DNA of 64,000 nt from Pedobacter cryoconitis (GTDB taxonomy: Bacteria > Bacteroidota > Bacteroidia > Sphingobacteriales > Sphingobacteriaceae). The stretch spans positions 1 through 64,000 of the forward strand of contig JAAAFW010000001.1 of NCBI GenBank assembly GCA_019352875.1, given 5' to 3'. Shown piece by piece: positions 4,473 through 16,319 of the stretch. The position numbers were made by a program, and so were the translations under genes. Position 1 is the first letter of the stretch, and every line of letters begins with the position of its first letter. The notes under the pieces are model-generated. The model was not told the DNA's origin and did not search any database. It worked only from the letters and a program-made list of their open reading frames with translations.

Positions 4473-5768
4473 ATGGCTACTGTAAAATTCAAAGCACATA
4501 AACATCATAAAAAAGCAGACGGTACGATCAACATCAAGCTGGTTGTATATCATAAAGGTGAGAGGTCCTACCCTGACACCGACCATTATGTTGTGGAAAA
4601 GCAGCTAACGAAGAAATATGAGGTGAAGGATCCTGATTTAAATGCAATCCTAACGTCTGAACTCGGTGAATATAGAATGGAGATTAGTAAACTGGGGCGT
4701 AATAAATTAAATTTACTTTCTGCTGCTGAACTTGGCGAATTATTACTGCCTGATATAAGTTCCGATAGTGATAAAATTGACTTTATATCTTTTGGAAAGG
4801 CCTTGGTTTCTGACCTTAAGGAGCAAAAGCGATTTTCTTATGCCGGAACGCTTCAGGCTGTAATTAATAACCTTCTGGACTTTAAAAAAACAGATGTAAT
4901 ATTTACGCAGAACATTACATCTGAGCTGTTAATGCAATTTGAAGATTATTTAAGAAAACCTCATATTCAAACTAGATTGAACCAATTCAAGGCACCTGTT
5001 GATGTTCGGCAGCCAGCTATGGGGGATGCTGGTATTTTTGCGACTATGAAGAATTTTAGAATCCTATATAAAGCAGCAATGTCAAAATACAATAATCTGG
5101 AAACAGGAGAACTTAACATTAAAAATTATCCGTTTGCAAATTACAAACTCATTGAGCCTCCCGAACCTGTGAAAAGAGCTTTAGAGATATCTTATGTAAA
5201 GGAAATTATTAATTGTAAGGGCTTTAAAAAAGGTGGCCGGGGAGAAATGGCGCACGCAGTATTCTTAATTAGTCTTTATTTGTGCGGAATGAATGCGATA
5301 GATATTTATAATTTAAATGAAATAAAAGACGGTAGAGTTTCTTACAACAGGAGTAAGACTAAAGATAAAAGATCAGACAAAGCGTACATAAGTATCAAGA
5401 TAATACCAGAGGTCAGTTATTTGCTTGACCAATGGCTAGGAAAGCTCTCTAAAAGATATTCGACACCGGAAATATTTAGAAAAGCCGTAGCGGAAGGATT
5501 GAAGCAAGTGGCCTTAAAAATACAAGCTGATAAAAATGAAAACTTAGTCATAATGGGAATGTCTCCAGACGCGAAACTGATATTATTTGATTTTTATAGT
5601 GCCAGGCACACTGTAGGTAATGAGGCATACAATACATTAGGATTTACTGAGGCCGAAGTAGGAGAAGTCCTTAATCATACCAAGCCCACCATCACCGCAT
5701 CATATATTAAGAAAATGTGGGTATTAGTAGATAAAGTACAGGAATCATTTGTGGGTCTGCTAAAGTAA
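4473..5768 (+). CDS. int: Prophage tyrosine integrase
   Basis: 431 residues: an N-terminal arm-binding part (1-~90), a SAM-like core-binding domain (~100-210) and a C-terminal catalytic domain. R378 in YSARHT, H402 in LNHTKP and Y411 in ASYIKKM fit box II and the tyrosine nucleophile, with the usual nine-residue H-to-Y spacing. The box I arginine position appears to be asparagine (CGMNAIDIYNL) and the HxxR histidine is tyrosine; loss of the first arginine is known in Bacteroidota integrases such as IntDOT. It lies directly inside attL and should catalyse integration and excision at tRNA-Ala. Confidence 0.93.
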   Translation: MATVKFKAHKHHKKADGTINIKLVVYHKGERSYPDTDHYVVEKQLTKKYEVKDPDLNAILTSELGEYRMEISKLGRNKLNLLSAAELGELLLPDISSDSDKIDFISFGKALVSDLKEQKRFSYAGTLQAVINNLLDFKKTDVIFTQNITSELLMQFEDYLRKPHIQTRLNQFKAPVDVRQPAMGDAGIFATMKNFRILYKAAMSKYNNLETGELNIKNYPFANYKLIEPPEPVKRALEISYVKEIINCKGFKKGGRGEMAHAVFLISLYLCGMNAIDIYNLNEIKDGRVSYNRSKTKDKRSDKAYISIKIIPEVSYLLDQWLGKLSKRYSTPEIFRKAVAEGLKQVALKIQADKNENLVIMGMSPDAKLILFDFYSARHTVGNEAYNTLGFTEAEVGEVLNHTKPTITASYIKKMWVLVDKVQESFVGLLK

Positions 5769-7623: not shown

Positions 7624-8202
7624 TTAAAAATCATCCTTGGATTTAATTCCACTCGACGATTTGCTCATCGCTGCTTGCAGGCTTGCAGATAATCTATTTA
7701 TTTCTTCATCCATATGTGGAATTATCACCTTTGCCGCACTATATAATATGCCTTTTTCTTTTGCATAGTATGGCAGGTATTCCATAATAGAGGCTCTTCC
7801 GCCAACCGAATGTTTACTTACCGTTTCGACAGTGAATTGCGAAAATTCGTATCGATATCTCCCATCTTTAACAGTGACCGATAATGTATAATTCAAATAG
7901 AAGTCTGTGTTAGACATCATAAATCTGTAAACTCCCGATGTCGTTCCCTTACCAATAATCTTACCGGCATTTTTATCGTCTAACTGTAAAACCTCTTTGG
8001 CGGAATTATACGTCATCACGTACCATTCTTTAGCTCTATTGTAGAGCTCATCTTTGGATACGCCGTCAACTAATATGACTTTTGAATAGGCAACGTCATT
8101 AGTAGATGAATCTATTGGAACTATAACCTTAGTATTTTTTTTCTGAGCGTAAGTATTTAACGTTAGTATAAGCGCAATTGCTATTAAAATTTGTTTTTTC
8201 AT
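7624..8202 (-). CDS. Exported DUF4468-like protein
   Basis: 192 residues with a signal peptide ending NTYAQ. The segment VDGVSKDELYNRAKEWYVMT, followed by DDKNAGKIIGKGTTSGVYRF and a beta-rich LNYTLSVTVKDGRYRYEFSQF, matches the pattern of DUF4468 (TBP-like fold) proteins of Bacteroidota. The role is unknown. It is the first gene after the S24 repressor and reads with it, so it should be expressed in the lysogen. Confidence 0.72.
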   Translation of the reverse strand: MKKQILIAIALILTLNTYAQKKNTKVIVPIDSSTNDVAYSKVILVDGVSKDELYNRAKEWYVMTYNSAKEVLQLDDKNAGKIIGKGTTSGVYRFMMSNTDFYLNYTLSVTVKDGRYRYEFSQFTVETVSKHSVGGRASIMEYLPYYAKEKGILYSAAKVIIPHMDEEINRLSASLQAAMSKSSSGIKSKDDF

Positions 8203-8225
8203 AGAGAGGTTAGTCTGTTTGTTTA

Positions 8226-8864
8226 TTAAAAGAATTTCTTTATAGCGCCCTTTACACGGAATACATGTGTTATTACTTCTTTTGGTATAGGTTGTGTCGC
8301 ATAATCGCCACCTTTATTATAAGGAATTAGGGTGTAATGATCATTATCTTCGCCTTTCCCTATCATCTTAATGGTTCGAAAGCCATTATCAGTTATTATT
8401 GCGTATATCTCGCCTTCTAATAAGAATCTTTTCCAGTCGTGGACTTGTTTCAAAGCAACAATATCCCCATGAGCAATTAAAGGCCCCATGCTTTTACCAG
8501 ATACGTTCACCCAATAGTCGGCATCGTTAAAAGGTAAGAAGTCGATATAAAAAGATGGGCTAACCTGATTATTATTAAAAACTAAGTCGAAACCTCCTAC
8601 AAAATCAATGTCAAAATACGGCACACCCTTTTCTTCTTTATTTATAGATGGGTTAATTTTTTCCAATTGACTATTTCCTTTGTCATTGGAATTAGTTCCA
8701 ATTCTAAAGTATGTGTTTAATTTTTGACTATCTAGCAATTTTGGAGTTCCTTTACCCTTAATCCATTTATACATGCGGTCTGCGGGTATTCCAGTCGCTC
8801 TTTCCACTTCTTTTATGTTTGAGTCTCGTAGCAGTAAAACTAACTCTGCAGGTTCTTTTTCCAT
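8226..8864 (-). CDS. CI-like repressor, HTH plus S24/LexA peptidase
   Basis: 212 residues. The N-terminal HTH (about 15-50, NIKEVERATGIPADRMYKWI) is followed by a linker and a LexA-type self-cleaving domain. S125 (VSGKSMGPL) and K166 (FRTIKMIG) form the serine-lysine dyad, 41 residues apart as in phage CI proteins. VGG at 89-91 is a candidate cleavage region. DNA damage through RecA would inactivate it and induce the prophage. Operator-like TTCC/GGAA repeats lie immediately upstream. Confidence 0.9.
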   Translation of the reverse strand: MEKEPAELVLLLRDSNIKEVERATGIPADRMYKWIKGKGTPKLLDSQKLNTYFRIGTNSNDKGNSQLEKINPSINKEEKGVPYFDIDFVGGFDLVFNNNQVSPSFYIDFLPFNDADYWVNVSGKSMGPLIAHGDIVALKQVHDWKRFLLEGEIYAIITDNGFRTIKMIGKGEDNDHYTLIPYNKGGDYATQPIPKEVITHVFRVKGAIKKFF

Positions 8865-8875
8865 TTTTTATTAAA

Positions 8876-8988
8876 TAGTTCCAAATAATTTGAAAATAAT
8901 TCCGATTTAATTTGGAATAATGGAATTAGTTCCGATATTTGTATTGTACAACAGAAACAAAGGTACAATATAAACTTAATCACACATA
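8876..8988. promoter_or_regulatory. Lysogeny switch: facing promoters and operators
   Basis: Rightward promoter: TTTG 8911-8914, 19 bases, GATATTTG 8934-8941 (one mismatch to consensus). Leftward promoter on the other strand: TATG 8988-8985, 19 bases, TACCTTTG 8965-8958. The two predicted starts lie only about 5 bp apart and face each other. Repeats ATTCC...GGAAT (8899-8918) and GGAATTAGTTCC (8922-8933) overlap the rightward promoter, the latter filling its spacer. These are likely operators for the S24 repressor at 8226. Confidence 0.6.
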
Positions 8989-9006
8989 TAGTTAATACCT
9001 ACTACC

Positions 9007-9249
9007 ATGAACCTACTAATTAATAACTACGGTATTCCAGCACTAAACTTTGAGGTTAATATTCTGACGCCCCGTGAAATTGAAGTTATCAAGAGAGTTT
9101 TATTACCAAGCAAGAATATAGCGTACGATTTAAACATCAGTGAGCATACAGTATCCTCTCACTTGACCAACATTAAGAATAAGACTGGGATGCTGGATAA
9201 GTATCACATGGCTTACTTCCTGGGCACAAGAAAAGAACTAATCAACTAA
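9007..9249 (+). CDS. LuxR/GerE-type HTH protein, first gene of the early operon
   Basis: 80 residues, almost entirely a GerE-type HTH: LTPREIEVIKRVLLPSKNIAYDLNISEHTVSSHLTNIKNKTG. It has no receiver or ligand domain. As the first gene behind the rightward promoter it may act as an early activator or anti-repressor, the role of Cro or CII in other phages. That role is inferred from position only. Confidence 0.75.
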   Translation: MNLLINNYGIPALNFEVNILTPREIEVIKRVLLPSKNIAYDLNISEHTVSSHLTNIKNKTGMLDKYHMAYFLGTRKELIN

Positions 9250-9253
9250 TCAT

Positions 9254-9484
9254 ATGAAACTAGAATTAGCAACACCACAAAAGGGTACTTCTTGGCCCAG
9301 TCTGATTTCAGACATTGAGTTGGTAGGGGAGCAGCACGGTAAGGCATTCCCATTGGATAAAGAAACATCCATCCGGCCAGCAATCAGTACCCACGTCAAA
9401 AAGGATTATCCGAACCGTGTTTATAAGGCCAATAAAAAAGTGAAGGATGGCATACGTGTCATCTGGGTTTGGAGGAAAGTATAA
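9254..9484 (+). CDS. Hypothetical early protein
   Basis: 76 residues with a basic C-terminal half (KKDYPNRVYKANKKVKDGIRVIWVWRKV), and a spacing of four bases from the LuxR-type gene. No family recognised. The basic beta-like end could bind nucleic acid, but this is a guess. Confidence 0.55.
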   Translation: MKLELATPQKGTSWPSLISDIELVGEQHGKAFPLDKETSIRPAISTHVKKDYPNRVYKANKKVKDGIRVIWVWRKV

Positions 9485-9657
9485 TGAAAAACAAGCCTGT
9501 ATCACTGCCCAAAAAGATCAAGTCGATGAAGCCTAATAATATGATAGGTATACCGGCTGATAAAATTCAGGAAGCATTGCCAATCCTGAATAAGCTTAGT
9601 TTCCCAATAAGCCGGGAGTATCAAAATGGTTCATTAATCATTACAAGAACAGCATAA
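9484..9657 (+). CDS. Hypothetical small early protein
   Basis: 57 residues from the ATG at 9484, chosen over an in-frame ATG at 9469 because GGAGG lies just before it. It overlaps the previous stop by one base (TAATG) and the next start by one base, so the three genes are translationally coupled. Function unknown. Confidence 0.5.
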   Translation: MKNKPVSLPKKIKSMKPNNMIGIPADKIQEALPILNKLSFPISREYQNGSLIITRTA

Positions 9658-12436: not shown

Positions 12437-12462
12437 ATAACAAAAGTCATTTAATGTATCAA
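12437..12462 (+). promoter_or_regulatory. Recurrent palindromic promoter element, copy 1 (DGR)
   Basis: ATAACAAAAGTCAT (12437-12450), six bases, then TATCAATT. First of six copies in the prophage. It lies 16 bp before the first DGR target gene, so the DGR has its own start point as well as possible read-through from the early operon. Confidence 0.5.
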
Positions 12463-12477
12463 TTAAAATAATGGAAA

Positions 12478-12957
12478 ATGCAAACATTACAAATCAGCAA
12501 GGCTAATGCCTTATTAGCATTTGAAGGTGCTACAAGTAAACAAAAAACATTGCTTTCCAACTTGTTCGGAAAGTCAGTATTCCAGAAATCGGCAATTGAA
12601 CGCATCAGGTCGTACGAAGATGCCTGCTCTGATCTCGGTATGGAGCCGTTGAGTGCTTCAGACTTCATGTTCCTACCAGAGAGGGACAGAAAACATGCAT
12701 TCGCTTCTCATAAGTTGACAATAATTATCCAGGCTTTAAATGAGGGATGGGTACCTAACTGGTCCAATAGCAATGAGTATAAATATTACGGATACTTCAG
12801 ATACTCTGGTTCGGGTTCTGGGTTTTCGTACGGCGTCTGCATCTGCGGTCGCGCTATCTCGGGTGTCGGGTCCCGCCTTGTATTCAAATCGAGAGAATTA
12901 GCTGAATACGCTGGAAAGCAGTTTATCTCCATCTACAACGATTATTTAACCCTTTAA
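12478..12957 (+). CDS. DGR target protein 1
   Basis: 159 residues. An N-terminal helical part (1-~50, KQKTLLSNLFGK) and a middle helix lead to KYYGYF, then the variable segment (residues 110-133, framed by GSGSGFS and VGSRL), then a conserved tail (FKSRELAEYAGKQFISIYNDYL). Targets 2 and 3 share this layout. Unlike classic targets, the variable segment is internal, with 26 residues after it. The fold is not recognisable as the C-type lectin of tail-fibre targets, and no signal peptide is present, so the protein is probably cytosolic. An ATG at 12471 is out of frame. Confidence 0.85.
   Translation: MQTLQISKANALLAFEGATSKQKTLLSNLFGKSVFQKSAIERIRSYEDACSDLGMEPLSASDFMFLPERDRKHAFASHKLTIIIQALNEGWVPNWSNSNEYKYYGYFRYSGSGSGFSYGVCICGRAISGVGSRLVFKSRELAEYAGKQFISIYNDYLTL
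12805..12876 (+). repeat. DGR variable repeat VR1
   Basis: Aligns without gaps to the template at 13849-13920 (offset 1044). There are 18 differences, all at template adenines; every other base is identical. It is the most diversified of the three. The 3' end CGGGTCCCGC is the putative initiation site (IMH). Confidence 0.93.
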
Positions 12958-12966
12958 TAGCTACAC

Positions 12967-13437
12967 ATGGAAACTTTAGATGTAAACAAAGAAAATGCAG
13001 TTAAGGCTTACGCCGAAGCTGATCCGAAAACAAAGTCTTTACTAGCCAATCTATTTGGGAAAAAGACATTCATATCCGATACCCGTGAACTAATCAAAAC
13101 GTTTGAGGATGCCTGTGAATTTGAGGGTATAGATCCGGATCAGTTCGCCTCAGATAACGAGGACTTAAGCCCAGATGAATATGCTTACAAACAGTTGAAA
13201 ATCATTGTAAAGGCATTAAATGGGGGTGAAGTACAGGATTACAAGGATGCCTCTGTCTGGAAATACTACCCATACTTTAATTCTACTGGTTCGGGTTCTG
13301 GGTTTTCGTGCAGCGACTCCTACTACGATTACGGTTACTCGTTTGTCGGGTCCCGCCTCCTTTTTAAAACCAGCGACCTGGCTGTATATGCAGGAAAAAA
13401 ATTCACTTCAATTTATAACCAATACCTAAACGGATAA
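12967..13437 (+). CDS. DGR target protein 2
   Basis: 156 residues, a paralogue of target 1 over its whole length: KTKSLLANLFGK, FEDACEFEGIDP, WKYYPYF, then the variable segment (residues 107-130) and FKTSDLAVYAGKKFTSIYNQYL. It starts nine bases after the previous stop. The variable codons read C S D S Y Y D Y G Y S F here. A tandem paralogous pair under one template suggests duplication followed by independent diversification. Confidence 0.85.
   Translation: METLDVNKENAVKAYAEADPKTKSLLANLFGKKTFISDTRELIKTFEDACEFEGIDPDQFASDNEDLSPDEYAYKQLKIIVKALNGGEVQDYKDASVWKYYPYFNSTGSGSGFSCSDSYYDYGYSFVGSRLLFKTSDLAVYAGKKFTSIYNQYLNG
13285..13356 (+). repeat. DGR variable repeat VR2
   Basis: Gapless alignment to the template (offset 564). 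There are 13 differences, all at template adenines. It ends with the same CGGGTCCCGC element as VR1 and VR3. Confidence 0.93.
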
Positions 13438-13440
13438 GCC

Positions 13441-13827
13441 ATGAACTTAGAAACTATCAAAACCTACGAAGATATCTGCAAACTGGATGGAGTAGACCCA
13501 ATCGCATCATTACCATATCAAAATCCCGTCAACAGCGAAGAAGCGGCAGTGAACAACTTTTCAAAAGTAATCCGGATCAACCGTATCCTAAATGATGGAT
13601 GGAAGCCGGATTGGTCAAATTGGGACGAGTACAAATATTACCCATGGTTTGAAATGGACTCGGATGAAACTGGTTCGGGTTCTGGGTTTTCGTACCTCGG
13701 CTACGACTGCGCTCTCGATCACTCGACTGTCGGGTCCCGCCTGGTTTACAAGACCCGTGAGTTAGCAAAGTTTGCCGGTACCGTATTCCTGGAGGAATAT
13801 AAAGGATACATGGTAATCCAGAAATAG
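13441..13827 (+). CDS. DGR target protein 3, short form
   Basis: 128 residues. It lacks the first ~40 residues of targets 1 and 2 (the LLxNLFGK helix) and starts at the equivalent of TYEDICKLDGVDP. The rest is conserved: EYKYYPWF, variable segment at residues 77-100, then YKTRELAKFAGTVFLEEYKGY. It starts three bases after target 2. The loss of the N-terminal part shows that this region is dispensable or provided by a partner. Confidence 0.83.
   Translation: MNLETIKTYEDICKLDGVDPIASLPYQNPVNSEEAAVNNFSKVIRINRILNDGWKPDWSNWDEYKYYPWFEMDSDETGSGSGFSYLGYDCALDHSTVGSRLVYKTRELAKFAGTVFLEEYKGYMVIQK
13669..13740 (+). repeat. DGR variable repeat VR3
   Basis: Gapless alignment to the template (offset 180). 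There are 14 differences, all at template adenines. It is the VR closest to the template and the RT. Confidence 0.93.
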
Positions 13828-13848
13828 AACTAGAGGTTGTGTGCTGCG

Positions 13849-13920
13849 ACTGGTTCAGGTTCTAGGTTTTCGTACAACGACTACAACTACGATAACGATA
13901 ACTCGAATGTCAGGTCCCAC
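13849..13920 (+). repeat. DGR template repeat (TR)
   Basis: 72 bp with 21 adenines. The variable core is built of codons TAC AAC GAC TAC AAC TAC GAT AAC GAT AAC then TCG AAT: all end in a pyrimidine or lack A, so adenine mutagenesis cannot create a stop. Its 3' end CAGGTCCCAC (IMH*) differs from the CGGGTCCCGC of all three VRs, the asymmetry that makes transfer one-way. It lies in an open frame (TTG 13837 to 14034) in phase with the VRs that ends on the RT start codon. About 110 bases separate it from the RT, where BPP-1 has a structured RNA. Confidence 0.93.
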
Positions 13921-14030
13921 ATTGCTAAAAAGAAATTAACCAGCACAGACCCTGCCTCTTGGCAAAAAATAACAGAATACTTCAAAGGCGTTGGTAACGA
14001 AAGTGAACACGACTTACAAAGCAAAGGCGC

Positions 14031-15029
14031 ATGAAACGAATAGGCAATTTATACGAACAGGTAATAAGCATTGATAACCTTCTGATGGCAGATCAGACTG
14101 CACGCAGGGGTAAATCAAAGCAGCACGGGATAATCAATTTTGACAAAAACTATGATCAGAATATTGCTGATATATACCGGGAGCTGGCAACCAATACCTA
14201 TAAAACTTCGAAGTACACCACAAGAACTATTTACGAGACGAAAGAGAGGATAATTTCTATCCTTCCTTACCGTGATCGGGTGGTGCAGCATGCAATAATG
14301 AATATCATGGAACCAATATTCGTATCGACGTTCACAGCAGATACTTACAGCTGCATCAAAGGTAAGGGTATACATGCAGCCAGCCGAGCATTAAAGAGTG
14401 CTTTGAAGGAGGAGGAATATACCAGGTATTGTCTAAAGCTGGATATCAGAAAGTTTTATCCATCAGTGGATAATTTGATACTAAAATCACTACTCCGGAA
14501 GAAAATTAAAGATCAGGAACTGCTGAAGTTACTCGACGGAATTATTGACAGCGCACCAGGTTTGCCGATAGGAAATTACTTAAGCCAGTACTTCGCCAAT
14601 TTTTACCTGACCTATTTCGATCACTGGATTAAAGAGCAGAAAGAAGTGAAACATTATTTCCGGTACGCTGATGACATTATAATCCTTGCGCCTAACAAAG
14701 AATACCTACACCGCGTACTGGCCGGGATAAGCAAGTACATGAGTCAGCGATTAAACCTGCAGGTGAAAAGCAATTATCAAATCTTTCCAGTTGCTGCCAG
14801 GGGAATAGATTTCGTTGGATATGTCCACTACCATACTCATGTGCTCATGAGAAAATCAATTAAGAAAAGCTTTGCCCGTAAAGTATCAAAGGGGATAAAT
14901 AAACTCTCTCTGGCTTCTTATCTGGGCTGGGCGAAACATTGTAATAGCCGACACCTACTTAAAAAACTGAGACCAAATGAATCTAAACCAAATAGAGACA
15001 AACGAACGGGTAATAAAGTCATTCAGTGA
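14031..15029 (+). CDS. DGR reverse transcriptase
   Basis: 332 residues, the usual DGR RT length. LDIRKFYPSV at 137-146 carries the first catalytic aspartate and YADD is at 212-215. LPIGNYLSQ (178-186) is the domain-4 SQ motif typical of DGR RTs in place of the QG of group II and retroviral enzymes. No maturase or endonuclease domain is present. It should copy TR RNA with adenine-specific errors into cDNA that replaces VRs. It is downstream of TR in the same direction. The next gene overlaps its 3' end by 53 bp. Confidence 0.95.
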   Translation: MKRIGNLYEQVISIDNLLMADQTARRGKSKQHGIINFDKNYDQNIADIYRELATNTYKTSKYTTRTIYETKERIISILPYRDRVVQHAIMNIMEPIFVSTFTADTYSCIKGKGIHAASRALKSALKEEEYTRYCLKLDIRKFYPSVDNLILKSLLRKKIKDQELLKLLDGIIDSAPGLPIGNYLSQYFANFYLTYFDHWIKEQKEVKHYFRYADDIIILAPNKEYLHRVLAGISKYMSQRLNLQVKSNYQIFPVAARGIDFVGYVHYHTHVLMRKSIKKSFARKVSKGINKLSLASYLGWAKHCNSRHLLKKLRPNESKPNRDKRTGNKVIQ

Positions 15030-15315
15030 CTTCAATATAGAATTAACGAGAACCGCACTTACCGGTGACAAGATTGAAATGTCGGAACTATTGAATAGGG
15101 AAATTATCATCACAGCATTCAGTATCGACGATTCGAAGTTCCCTGAAAAAGGTAATGGTTTGCGACTCACATTACAATTTAAAATTGATGATAGGGAGAA
15201 AGTAGTATTTACCGGATCAACACAGCTGCAGGATTTAATCAAGAAAGTAGCCCCGGAGAACTTCCCATTCTCAACGGTAATCATCAAGCAAAATAAAGGG
15301 TACAAGTTTACCTAA
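14977..15315 (+). CDS. Hypothetical protein overlapping the RT gene
   Basis: 112 residues, predicted beta-rich with alternating hydrophobic strands (REIIITAFSI, GLRLTLQFKI, EKVVFTGSTQ) ending in basic YKFT; an OB-like single-strand-binding fold is possible. It starts inside the last 53 bases of the RT, so translation is probably coupled. Position makes it a candidate DGR accessory factor; it does not resemble the four-helix Avd. Alternatively it belongs to the replication module. Confidence 0.6.
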   Translation: MNLNQIETNERVIKSFSDFNIELTRTALTGDKIEMSELLNREIIITAFSIDDSKFPEKGNGLRLTLQFKIDDREKVVFTGSTQLQDLIKKVAPENFPFSTVIIKQNKGYKFT

Positions 15316-15383: not shown

Positions 15384-16319
15384 ATGATAACCGTAAACAG
15401 TTTATCCGGAGGCAAGACAAGTTCTTATATCGCGGTTCATTATCCTGCGGATCACGATGTGTTTTCGGTGGTATGCCTAGATGATGCTAACTGCACCCCG
15501 AAAGATCCAGCGGTTTTAAAATATGCTCAGGAAAAGCTATCAAAGTTTAATCGTGAATTCGGAGAGTTCATAGCTACAGCCGAAGATGACAAGACTTTAT
15601 TAGCAATGATGCATTTAGAGCAGTATATCGGTAGAGAGATTACATGGGTAAGGGGTATGTCATTCGATAATCTCCTGCGAACTAAAACAATGTTTGGGGG
15701 TGGTGAAATGGGGCCCGGTAGGTTACCATCTTGGGCGAGACGTTATTGTACAAGTGTCATGAAGCTGCAAGCAATATTCGAATGGTGGTTTAACAACGTT
15801 TATGAAAAGGTTGATATGAGACTAGGTTTCAGATTCGATGAATTCAAGCGGATGGAGAAGTTTTTCAACAATGGAACTCCGGGAATTTTCAAGATGCCTA
15901 CCAGCTGCTCCACTCAAGGAAAACGACTACAGAAAAAAGAAGATTTCCTGTGGCGGTATTGTTCATTTCCTCTCATACAAACTGGTGTAGATAAGTCTAC
16001 TGTAAATCAATATTGGAAAGATAACGGACTTATTCCGGCCACGCTTTTTAGTACTGAAGTAAAGATGGAGTTTCCAGTTATCTCTAATTGTGTAGGATGT
16101 TTTCATAAAAAAACTGAGACGCTGGCGATCATGTGGGAGATGCATCCCGAAAAAATGCAATGGTTTGCAGATCAAGAGCTCATAGGTAAAGGCACTTGGT
16201 TAGATAATAACCAAACCTATCAGTCAATTGGAAATAATCGATTTGAAGTAGCTAAAGAGGTGATGTATGAGTTCTTTACGCTGGGAGAAACTTGTGACAG
16301 TGGGGGCTGTACAGATTAA
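15384..16319 (+). CDS. PAPS reductase-like ATP pyrophosphatase
   Basis: 311 residues. The PP-loop SGGKTSS is at residues 8-14 (LSGGKTSSYIA), the ATP-binding signature of the adenine nucleotide alpha-hydrolase superfamily that includes CysH and DndC. Cysteines at CTSVMK, CSTQGKR, NCVGCFHKK and CDSGGC may bind metal. Phage-encoded members are common but seldom characterised; some modify nucleic acids or sulfur compounds. No other Dnd or queuosine gene is nearby, so the substrate is unknown. Confidence 0.75.
   Translation: MITVNSLSGGKTSSYIAVHYPADHDVFSVVCLDDANCTPKDPAVLKYAQEKLSKFNREFGEFIATAEDDKTLLAMMHLEQYIGREITWVRGMSFDNLLRTKTMFGGGEMGPGRLPSWARRYCTSVMKLQAIFEWWFNNVYEKVDMRLGFRFDEFKRMEKFFNNGTPGIFKMPTSCSTQGKRLQKKEDFLWRYCSFPLIQTGVDKSTVNQYWKDNGLIPATLFSTEVKMEFPVISNCVGCFHKKTETLAIMWEMHPEKMQWFADQELIGKGTWLDNNQTYQSIGNNRFEVAKEVMYEFFTLGETCDSGGCTD

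Follow-up and report, generated by a model that had tools for sequence, protein, structure and literature searches.

A three-target diversity-generating retroelement in a Pedobacter prophage, with a candidate accessory gene and a context pattern at template adenines

Introduction

How might a diversity-generating retroelement (DGR) work without the accessory protein Avd of the type found in Bordetella phage BPP-1, and what kind of protein does it vary? Both questions are raised by a cassette in a prophage of Pedobacter cryoconitis. The window analysed here is a stretch of 64,000 nucleotides (contig JAAAFW010000001.1, positions 1 to 64,000, forward strand; assembly GCA_019352875.1), the start of contig C6 in a 4.93-Mb genome. 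From its sequence we consider it probable (about 0.85) that the cassette is a DGR without a BPP-1-type Avd. Its reverse transcriptase (RT) would copy the RNA of a template repeat (TR) with errors at adenines, and the resulting complementary DNA (cDNA) would overwrite the internal variable repeats (VRs) of three small phage proteins, with the product of an adjoining gene, here called X, as a helper. A preliminary description of the window had recognised repeats, targets and RT and had overlooked gene X, the spacer RNA, the absence of a BPP-1-type Avd, the unusual targets and the rule of several targets per cassette. The cassette is set apart by its unusual targets, a likely accessory protein that had gone unrecognised, a structured RNA in the spacer and a context pattern that TR-VR alignments conceal. 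Published work is cited below from excerpts of the papers.

Results

The variable repeats differ from the template at adenines only

The cassette comprises the following features.

12478..12957, + strand: target gene 1, 159 amino acids, phrog_11581 (unknown function); structure modelled
12805..12876, + strand: VR1, inside target 1; 18 differences from the TR, all at TR adenines
12967..13437, + strand: target gene 2, 156 amino acids; 47% identical to target 1
13285..13356, + strand: VR2, inside target 2; 13 differences from the TR
13441..13827, + strand: target gene 3, 128 amino acids, with most of the N-terminal region missing; 44% identity to target 1 over residues 40-158
13669..13740, + strand: VR3, inside target 3; 14 differences from the TR
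13849..13920, + strand: TR with 21 adenines; 13857, 13864 and 13912 are AG sites and G in all VRs, as is 13919 (in CAC)
13948..14025, + strand: structured spacer RNA between TR and RT, Rfam RF03020 (RT-17), likely an RT recruitment and priming RNA; covariation in 31 spacers
14031..15029, + strand: DGR-type RT, 332 amino acids, with sequence and solved-structure matches
14977..15315, + strand: gene X, 112 amino acids, phrog_19665, overlapping the RT end; likely accessory protein with a predicted OB-like fold

The three 72-bp VRs were aligned to the TR by script and without gaps. This reproduced exactly the preliminary counts of 18, 13 and 14 differences; the coordinates of RT and targets also stood as given, and the identities listed above bear out three tandem paralogous targets. 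All 45 differences (26 A>G, 11 A>T and 8 A>C) fall on TR adenines, and the 51 non-adenine positions are identical in each VR. Assuming independence, the chance that 45 random mismatches all hit adenines is about (21/72)^45, or ~1e-24. Twelve of the 45 are the same four A-to-G changes, at TR positions 9, 16, 64 and 71, common to VR1, VR2 and VR3; one lies at TR position 1 (VR1), and the other 32 on 16 core adenines. The earlier figure of 4^16 core combinations was too high, because the core holds ~28.1 rather than 32 bits, as calculated from family-wide base frequencies by 3' neighbour, which include selection; moreover, four TR adenines are invariably G. A protein search of the source genome with target 1 gave three matches, only the cassette's own copies.

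The assignment of the RT to the DGR type was upheld. Among solved structures it matches 8ub7_A 'Reverse transcriptase' best (E 1.4e-51), which we take to be the BPP-1 enzyme, and its motif IGNYLSQ is aligned with IGSLTSQ of that chain. In a quick tree of 245 of 334 rows, which included the DGR enzymes of BPP-1, crAss-like phages and ANMV-1 and no non-DGR outgroup, the window RT lies inside the DGR set.

The cassette belongs to a family that usually has two targets

A scan of viral contigs with the window RT kept 80 loci, and one scan of a genome collection with the target profile as query gave 78, whose titles are mostly Bacteroidota, plus Ignavibacteria, a Chlorobi bin and Clostridia bins. 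Among the viral relatives, TR-VR pairs were found in 76/80, the target family in 77/80 and gene X in 77/80. Seven of these contigs are cut close to the RT or the targets. Those that lack targets (L024, L025 and L047) start ~0.2 kb ahead of the RT; L048, which is among the three contigs without X, ends 72 bp past it. The gene order targets-TR-spacer RNA-RT-X is conserved among relatives. Counting targets up to 2.2 kb upstream of the TR in 130 cassettes with pairs, we found two in 110, three in 11, one in 8 and four in 1; two targets are thus usual in this family, and the window has three. An additional VR-bearing target lies kilobases away in five loci (L085, L091, L120, L133 and L159).

Two 16-kb stretches, L137 (at 7965-9649) and L116, hold four tandem targets, and no RT was found within them. 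Seven further loci (L092, L107, L130, L138, L145, L158 and L161) have targets and a TR, with no RT of more than 200 amino acids matched in the fetched stretch; their RT may be lost, diverged or elsewhere.

Three pairs of loci at ~96% identity give a record of change. L049 and L058 differ at 18/40 VR-adenine, 0/123 other VR, 0/82 TR and 100/2854 outside positions, and L043 and L058 at 23/40, 0/123, 0/82 and 67/2153, respectively. L038 and L072 differ at 24 VR-adenine positions, one other VR position and two TR positions. Identical or nearly identical loci have identical VRs. At the level of sequence, this divergence is the pattern that a DGR active over evolutionary time leaves. The window cassette is known from one genome and one snapshot, and could in principle be a dead remnant. 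This is very improbable, given that targets, RT and X are open frames, that every VR keeps all 51 non-adenine positions, and that related loci diverge at VR adenines while the TR stays fixed.

Gene X is a candidate accessory gene of DGRs without Avd

Gene X follows the RT in the 77 viral relatives that have it and is present in 42 of the 44 genome loci that have an RT (of 78). A BPP-1-type Avd was found in 0/81 viral and 0/78 genome loci with a profile built from BPP-1-type Avds, which may miss distant ones, and X never occurs together with such an Avd in the loci examined. About a quarter of DGRs were reported without an accessory-gene homologue (PMC7290462). X also directly follows the RT of the archaeal virus ANMV-1 (hhalign E 4e-20).

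X could be no more than a small, generic phage gene for a DNA-binding protein that happens to sit in the operon of an ordinary Avd-less DGR. In keeping with this, 20 gains or losses of X are needed on the RT tree; X is missing at many loci with other RT types, standing beside only 37/66 crAss-, 20/74 Versailles- and 32/79 Perkons-type RTs; and larger, weaker X relatives occur farther from the RT (~750 bp, E ~1e-8). However, X shares one open frame with the RT in seven contigs (L209, L229, L420, L417, L068, L202 and L206), which represent six distinct sequences since L209 equals L229; L068 is cut by the contig end. Only two of 50,697 phage records contain X, both right behind a DGR RT, and all five X-bearing genomes among 395 Bacteroidota genomes (the source genome included) have it adjoining an RT. 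X also stands beside RTs with different, larger targets. On this evidence we regard the generic-gene explanation as rather unlikely, and X as likely to be an overlooked, RT-linked DGR accessory protein. Its predicted fold is OB-like (oligonucleotide/oligosaccharide-binding), and it may bind cDNA or other single-stranded DNA. A solved-structure search with X returned no match at E<=1, and our searches of open-licence PMC papers turned up no description of an X-like accessory.

Scans with the Versailles- and Perkons-type RTs showed two other small families (median 141 and 88 amino acids) in the place of X after X-less RTs. These are possibly other accessories or tail-module genes. The idea that genes behind X-less RTs are distant X relatives was dropped, as hhalign of eight clusters against X gave probabilities <1%.

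The spacer between template and RT encodes a covarying RNA

The spacer at 13948-14025 matches Rfam RT-17 with 40.5 bits, against a cut-off of 40.4. At that cut-off RT-17 was also found in L004 and L420, and not in 11 other loci tested. We aligned the spacers of 31 loci whose RT start fitted a pattern; 11 of 12 base pairs changed on both sides, 95.4% of cells pair, and 0/500 shuffles reached any of five measures. At E<=0.1 the resulting model matches 60/93 loci, in almost every case immediately upstream of the RT; in the fusion contigs L209, L229 and L420 the match lies ~0.5-0.6 kb upstream of the RT frame. It had no match in 15 BPP-1-type sources, ANMV-1 or vir525. In BPP-1, cDNA synthesis is primed by the spacer, which also recruits the RT-Avd complex (PMC12875486). 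By analogy, the window spacer RNA is probably an RT-loading spacer that would both load and prime the RT.

Template adenines before G are nearly always G in the variable repeats

Over 249 TR-VR pairs, counted as pairs with distinct sequences and not as independent events, template A in CAG became G in 581/593 VR cells, including 186/191 at fourfold-degenerate sites. TAG gave a weaker pattern (20/28), and A before A, C or T was met by mixed VR bases. A simpler rule, that any A after C becomes G, was rejected, since CAA is free to vary and A persists in 48/272 CAC cells. AG sites are G in 7/8 cases in ANMV-1 and 4/5 in vir525. Scans with three further RT queries gave the same pattern, and the BPP-1 RT gave a weaker one. 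In the large survey of PMC6642488, G takes the place of about half of the adenines that are replaced. For the BPP-1 enzyme, a study from 2026 describes a strong dependence on the 3' neighbour, with the incorporation that yields A-to-C raised before C and at 0.08% before G; the excerpted text states no A-to-G rate for AG (PMC12875486). The tentaclin paper notes rare A-to-C changes at the second A of AAC (PMC10743442). In our searches of open-licence PMC papers we did not find a near-obligate A-to-G change before G described.

The fixed A-to-G sites might reflect selection on the VRs, for protein or homing-site sequence, rather than a reading rule of the enzyme. Many of them lie near the repeat ends and lead to Ser-to-Gly or His-to-Arg replacements. 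In archaeal DUSEL4 DGRs the initiation of mutagenic homing (IMH) sequence TGGGGT faces TGGAAT in IMH* (PMC4372165). In the relatives, TR and VR also differ in a fixed manner just 3' of the repeat; because TR adenines at +8, +9 and +11 are a fixed C or T in most VRs, the fixed sites on the 3' side (+7 onwards) may not be part of the copied tract. A 3'-anchored table of pairs excluded 18/118 that did not fit the anchor and that could enter the cell and silent-site counts. Fixed adenines outside the tract are not the sole cause, because silent AG sites inside it are also G. Such fourfold-degenerate sites, flanked by two mutagenised adenines, speak against selection: they are G in 25/26 cases in the window family, 45/46 in the Perkons-RT scan, 18/18 in the crAss-like-RT scan and 13/16 in the Versailles-RT scan. 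The BPP-1-RT scan gave 4/6. The crAss-like scan re-found some window-family contigs, and identical pairs were counted once. Silent non-AG sites are G in 16/63 (window family), 9/20 (crAss-like), 11/36 (Versailles) and 27/65 (BPP-1) cases; with the Perkons-type RT they too are mostly G (19/26), as selection would allow. Weighing these counts, we think selection rather unlikely as the explanation, and suggest that a template A followed by G is read by the enzyme as G.

If so, an AG in the template would be a programmed A-to-G change, and A before A, C or T would provide diversity. We speculate that the programmed sites would give a cDNA that fits the VRs but not the template it was copied from, which would protect the TR against overwriting.

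The targets are predicted to be small, non-lectin proteins encoded among early genes

The sole family match of the targets is the one listed for target 1. We found 2181 target relatives at E<=0.001, and none in the annotated phage collection at E<=1e-5. The AlphaFold2 model of the target, from 110 sequences, has a predicted local distance difference test (pLDDT) score of 86.5 and consists mainly of helices, with a single beta-hairpin at 102-124. Residues 110-133, which form the VR, take in the second hairpin strand and the least certain stretch (pLDDT 58 at 121-130). The VR is internal, not C-terminal, with a median of 27 residues after it in 246 relatives. The predicted fold looks unlike a C-type lectin. 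By comparison, Roux et al. 2021 place VRs at C-termini and describe annotated VR regions as systematically C-type lectins (PMC8144416).

Searches for a known fold or function gave little. Solved-structure searches with the target returned nothing credible (best E 0.19), although a fold may be present even where no match is found. A Foldseek search of viral models yielded seven matches at E<=0.001, six uncharacterised and one unnamed. No lectin was among the VIA matches listed for the target, which is no evidence of absence. PADLOC and NCBIfam scans matched neither the targets nor gene X, and Pfam named no lectin in eight larger VR proteins from X-bearing loci, with one sub-threshold CBM_5_12 match. 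In two relatives the family takes other forms: P0016 (247 amino acids) has two copies in tandem, a natural fusion of two targets, and in P0010 a target with a TR-like variable part runs into spacer-like residues, as if a target-TR deletion had joined both.

The placement of the cassette in a prophage is supported by its surroundings. A protein with an integrase SAM-like domain is encoded at 4473-5768; upstream of the cassette there are genes for a CI-like repressor, a RecT-like protein and SSB, and downstream of it genes for a DnaB-like helicase, terminase, portal, major head protein, tape measure and endolysin. Judged by gene content, the host element looks like a complete prophage, in which the cassette belongs to the early genes. 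The RecT-like and SSB genes raised the idea of recombineering-like homing. This was rejected: phmmer found RecT in 0/80 and SSB in 3/80 relatives, and they are therefore not a conserved cassette feature. A PAPS-reductase-like gene (phrog_424, 15384-16319) directly follows the cassette and is also present in relative L006.

Tail protein is the usual annotation of phage DGR targets (PMC8144416), and the targets here could likewise be virion or receptor-binding proteins whose genes merely lie apart from those of the tail. Of the 20 neighbours scanned in four relatives, one is a head-type protein (L014), as a virion role would permit. No tail gene is among those with a named function, which are otherwise of early or recombination type (repressor, exonuclease, replication initiation, helicase, Mu-like transposition, HNH and a weak Sak4 match). 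Such neighbours, the small size of the targets and their predicted non-lectin fold argue against a virion role, which we consider doubtful while granting it a substantial minority chance. We favour soluble, intracellular proteins made early in infection.

Comparison with known DGRs

The BPP-1 DGR (mtd, avd, TR, brt) shares with the window a related RT, adenine-specific TR-VR differences and a TR-RT spacer. It has one annotated target and Avd, whereas the window has three targets with internal VRs and gene X in place of such an Avd. The unmatched spacer model and the stronger AG-to-GG pattern further set the window apart.

The first 21 matches of the RT (47-56% identity over 92-99% of its length) are mostly from crAss-like phages. 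The DGRs of these phages, with an RT of 'lineage 3' without avd (PMC7290462), share the order target-TR-RT, the lack of Avd and the AG pattern. In contrast to the three small targets of the window, they have one large tail target at the listed loci, and X was not found in six records (L162-L167) read in the standard code, in which some phages show stops. In one of these, crAss-like phage cr52_1 (L162:6001-7026), the annotated RT has six stops in the standard code, consistent with stop-codon recoding in this phage group.

The ANMV-1 DGR (PMC4372165) resembles the window in the position of X and in its AG sites. It differs in having one Mtd-like C-type lectin target near tail fibres, according to its authors' model, and in its spacer. 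The two-target DGRs of tentaclin phages (PMC10743442) and Bacuni phages (PMC8143477) also use one TR for more than one target gene. Their targets are mutually unlike and are called lectin or DUF1566/fimbrial, whereas those of the window are tandem paralogues of one small family; the Bacuni DGR, unlike the window, has Avd (PMC8143477).

Discussion

A broader reading would join these observations into a large clade of Avd-less DGRs that reaches from Bacteroidota phages to ANMV-1. Its RTs would have X as a new OB-fold partner handling cDNA, and would read A before G as G. Two classes of template adenine would follow, the programmed ones fitting the targets and not the template. In the window family, small early proteins would be diversified inside the host cell, as an arms-race device and not a receptor switch. 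The 'Avd' label in ANMV-1 and the cases in which X is missing or split off weigh against this combination of clade, OB partner, AG rule and intracellular targets by lowering its joint odds, and we hold it tentatively, at somewhat less than even odds.

For the loading, extension and integration of cDNA in Avd-less DGRs, X and the covarying spacer RNA offer concrete parts. The AG pattern makes existing TR-VR alignments a readout of RT fidelity, and could allow the design of templates that combine variable sites with sites of predetermined change. Hypermutated proteins that are early and not part of the tail would widen the known use of DGRs in phages.
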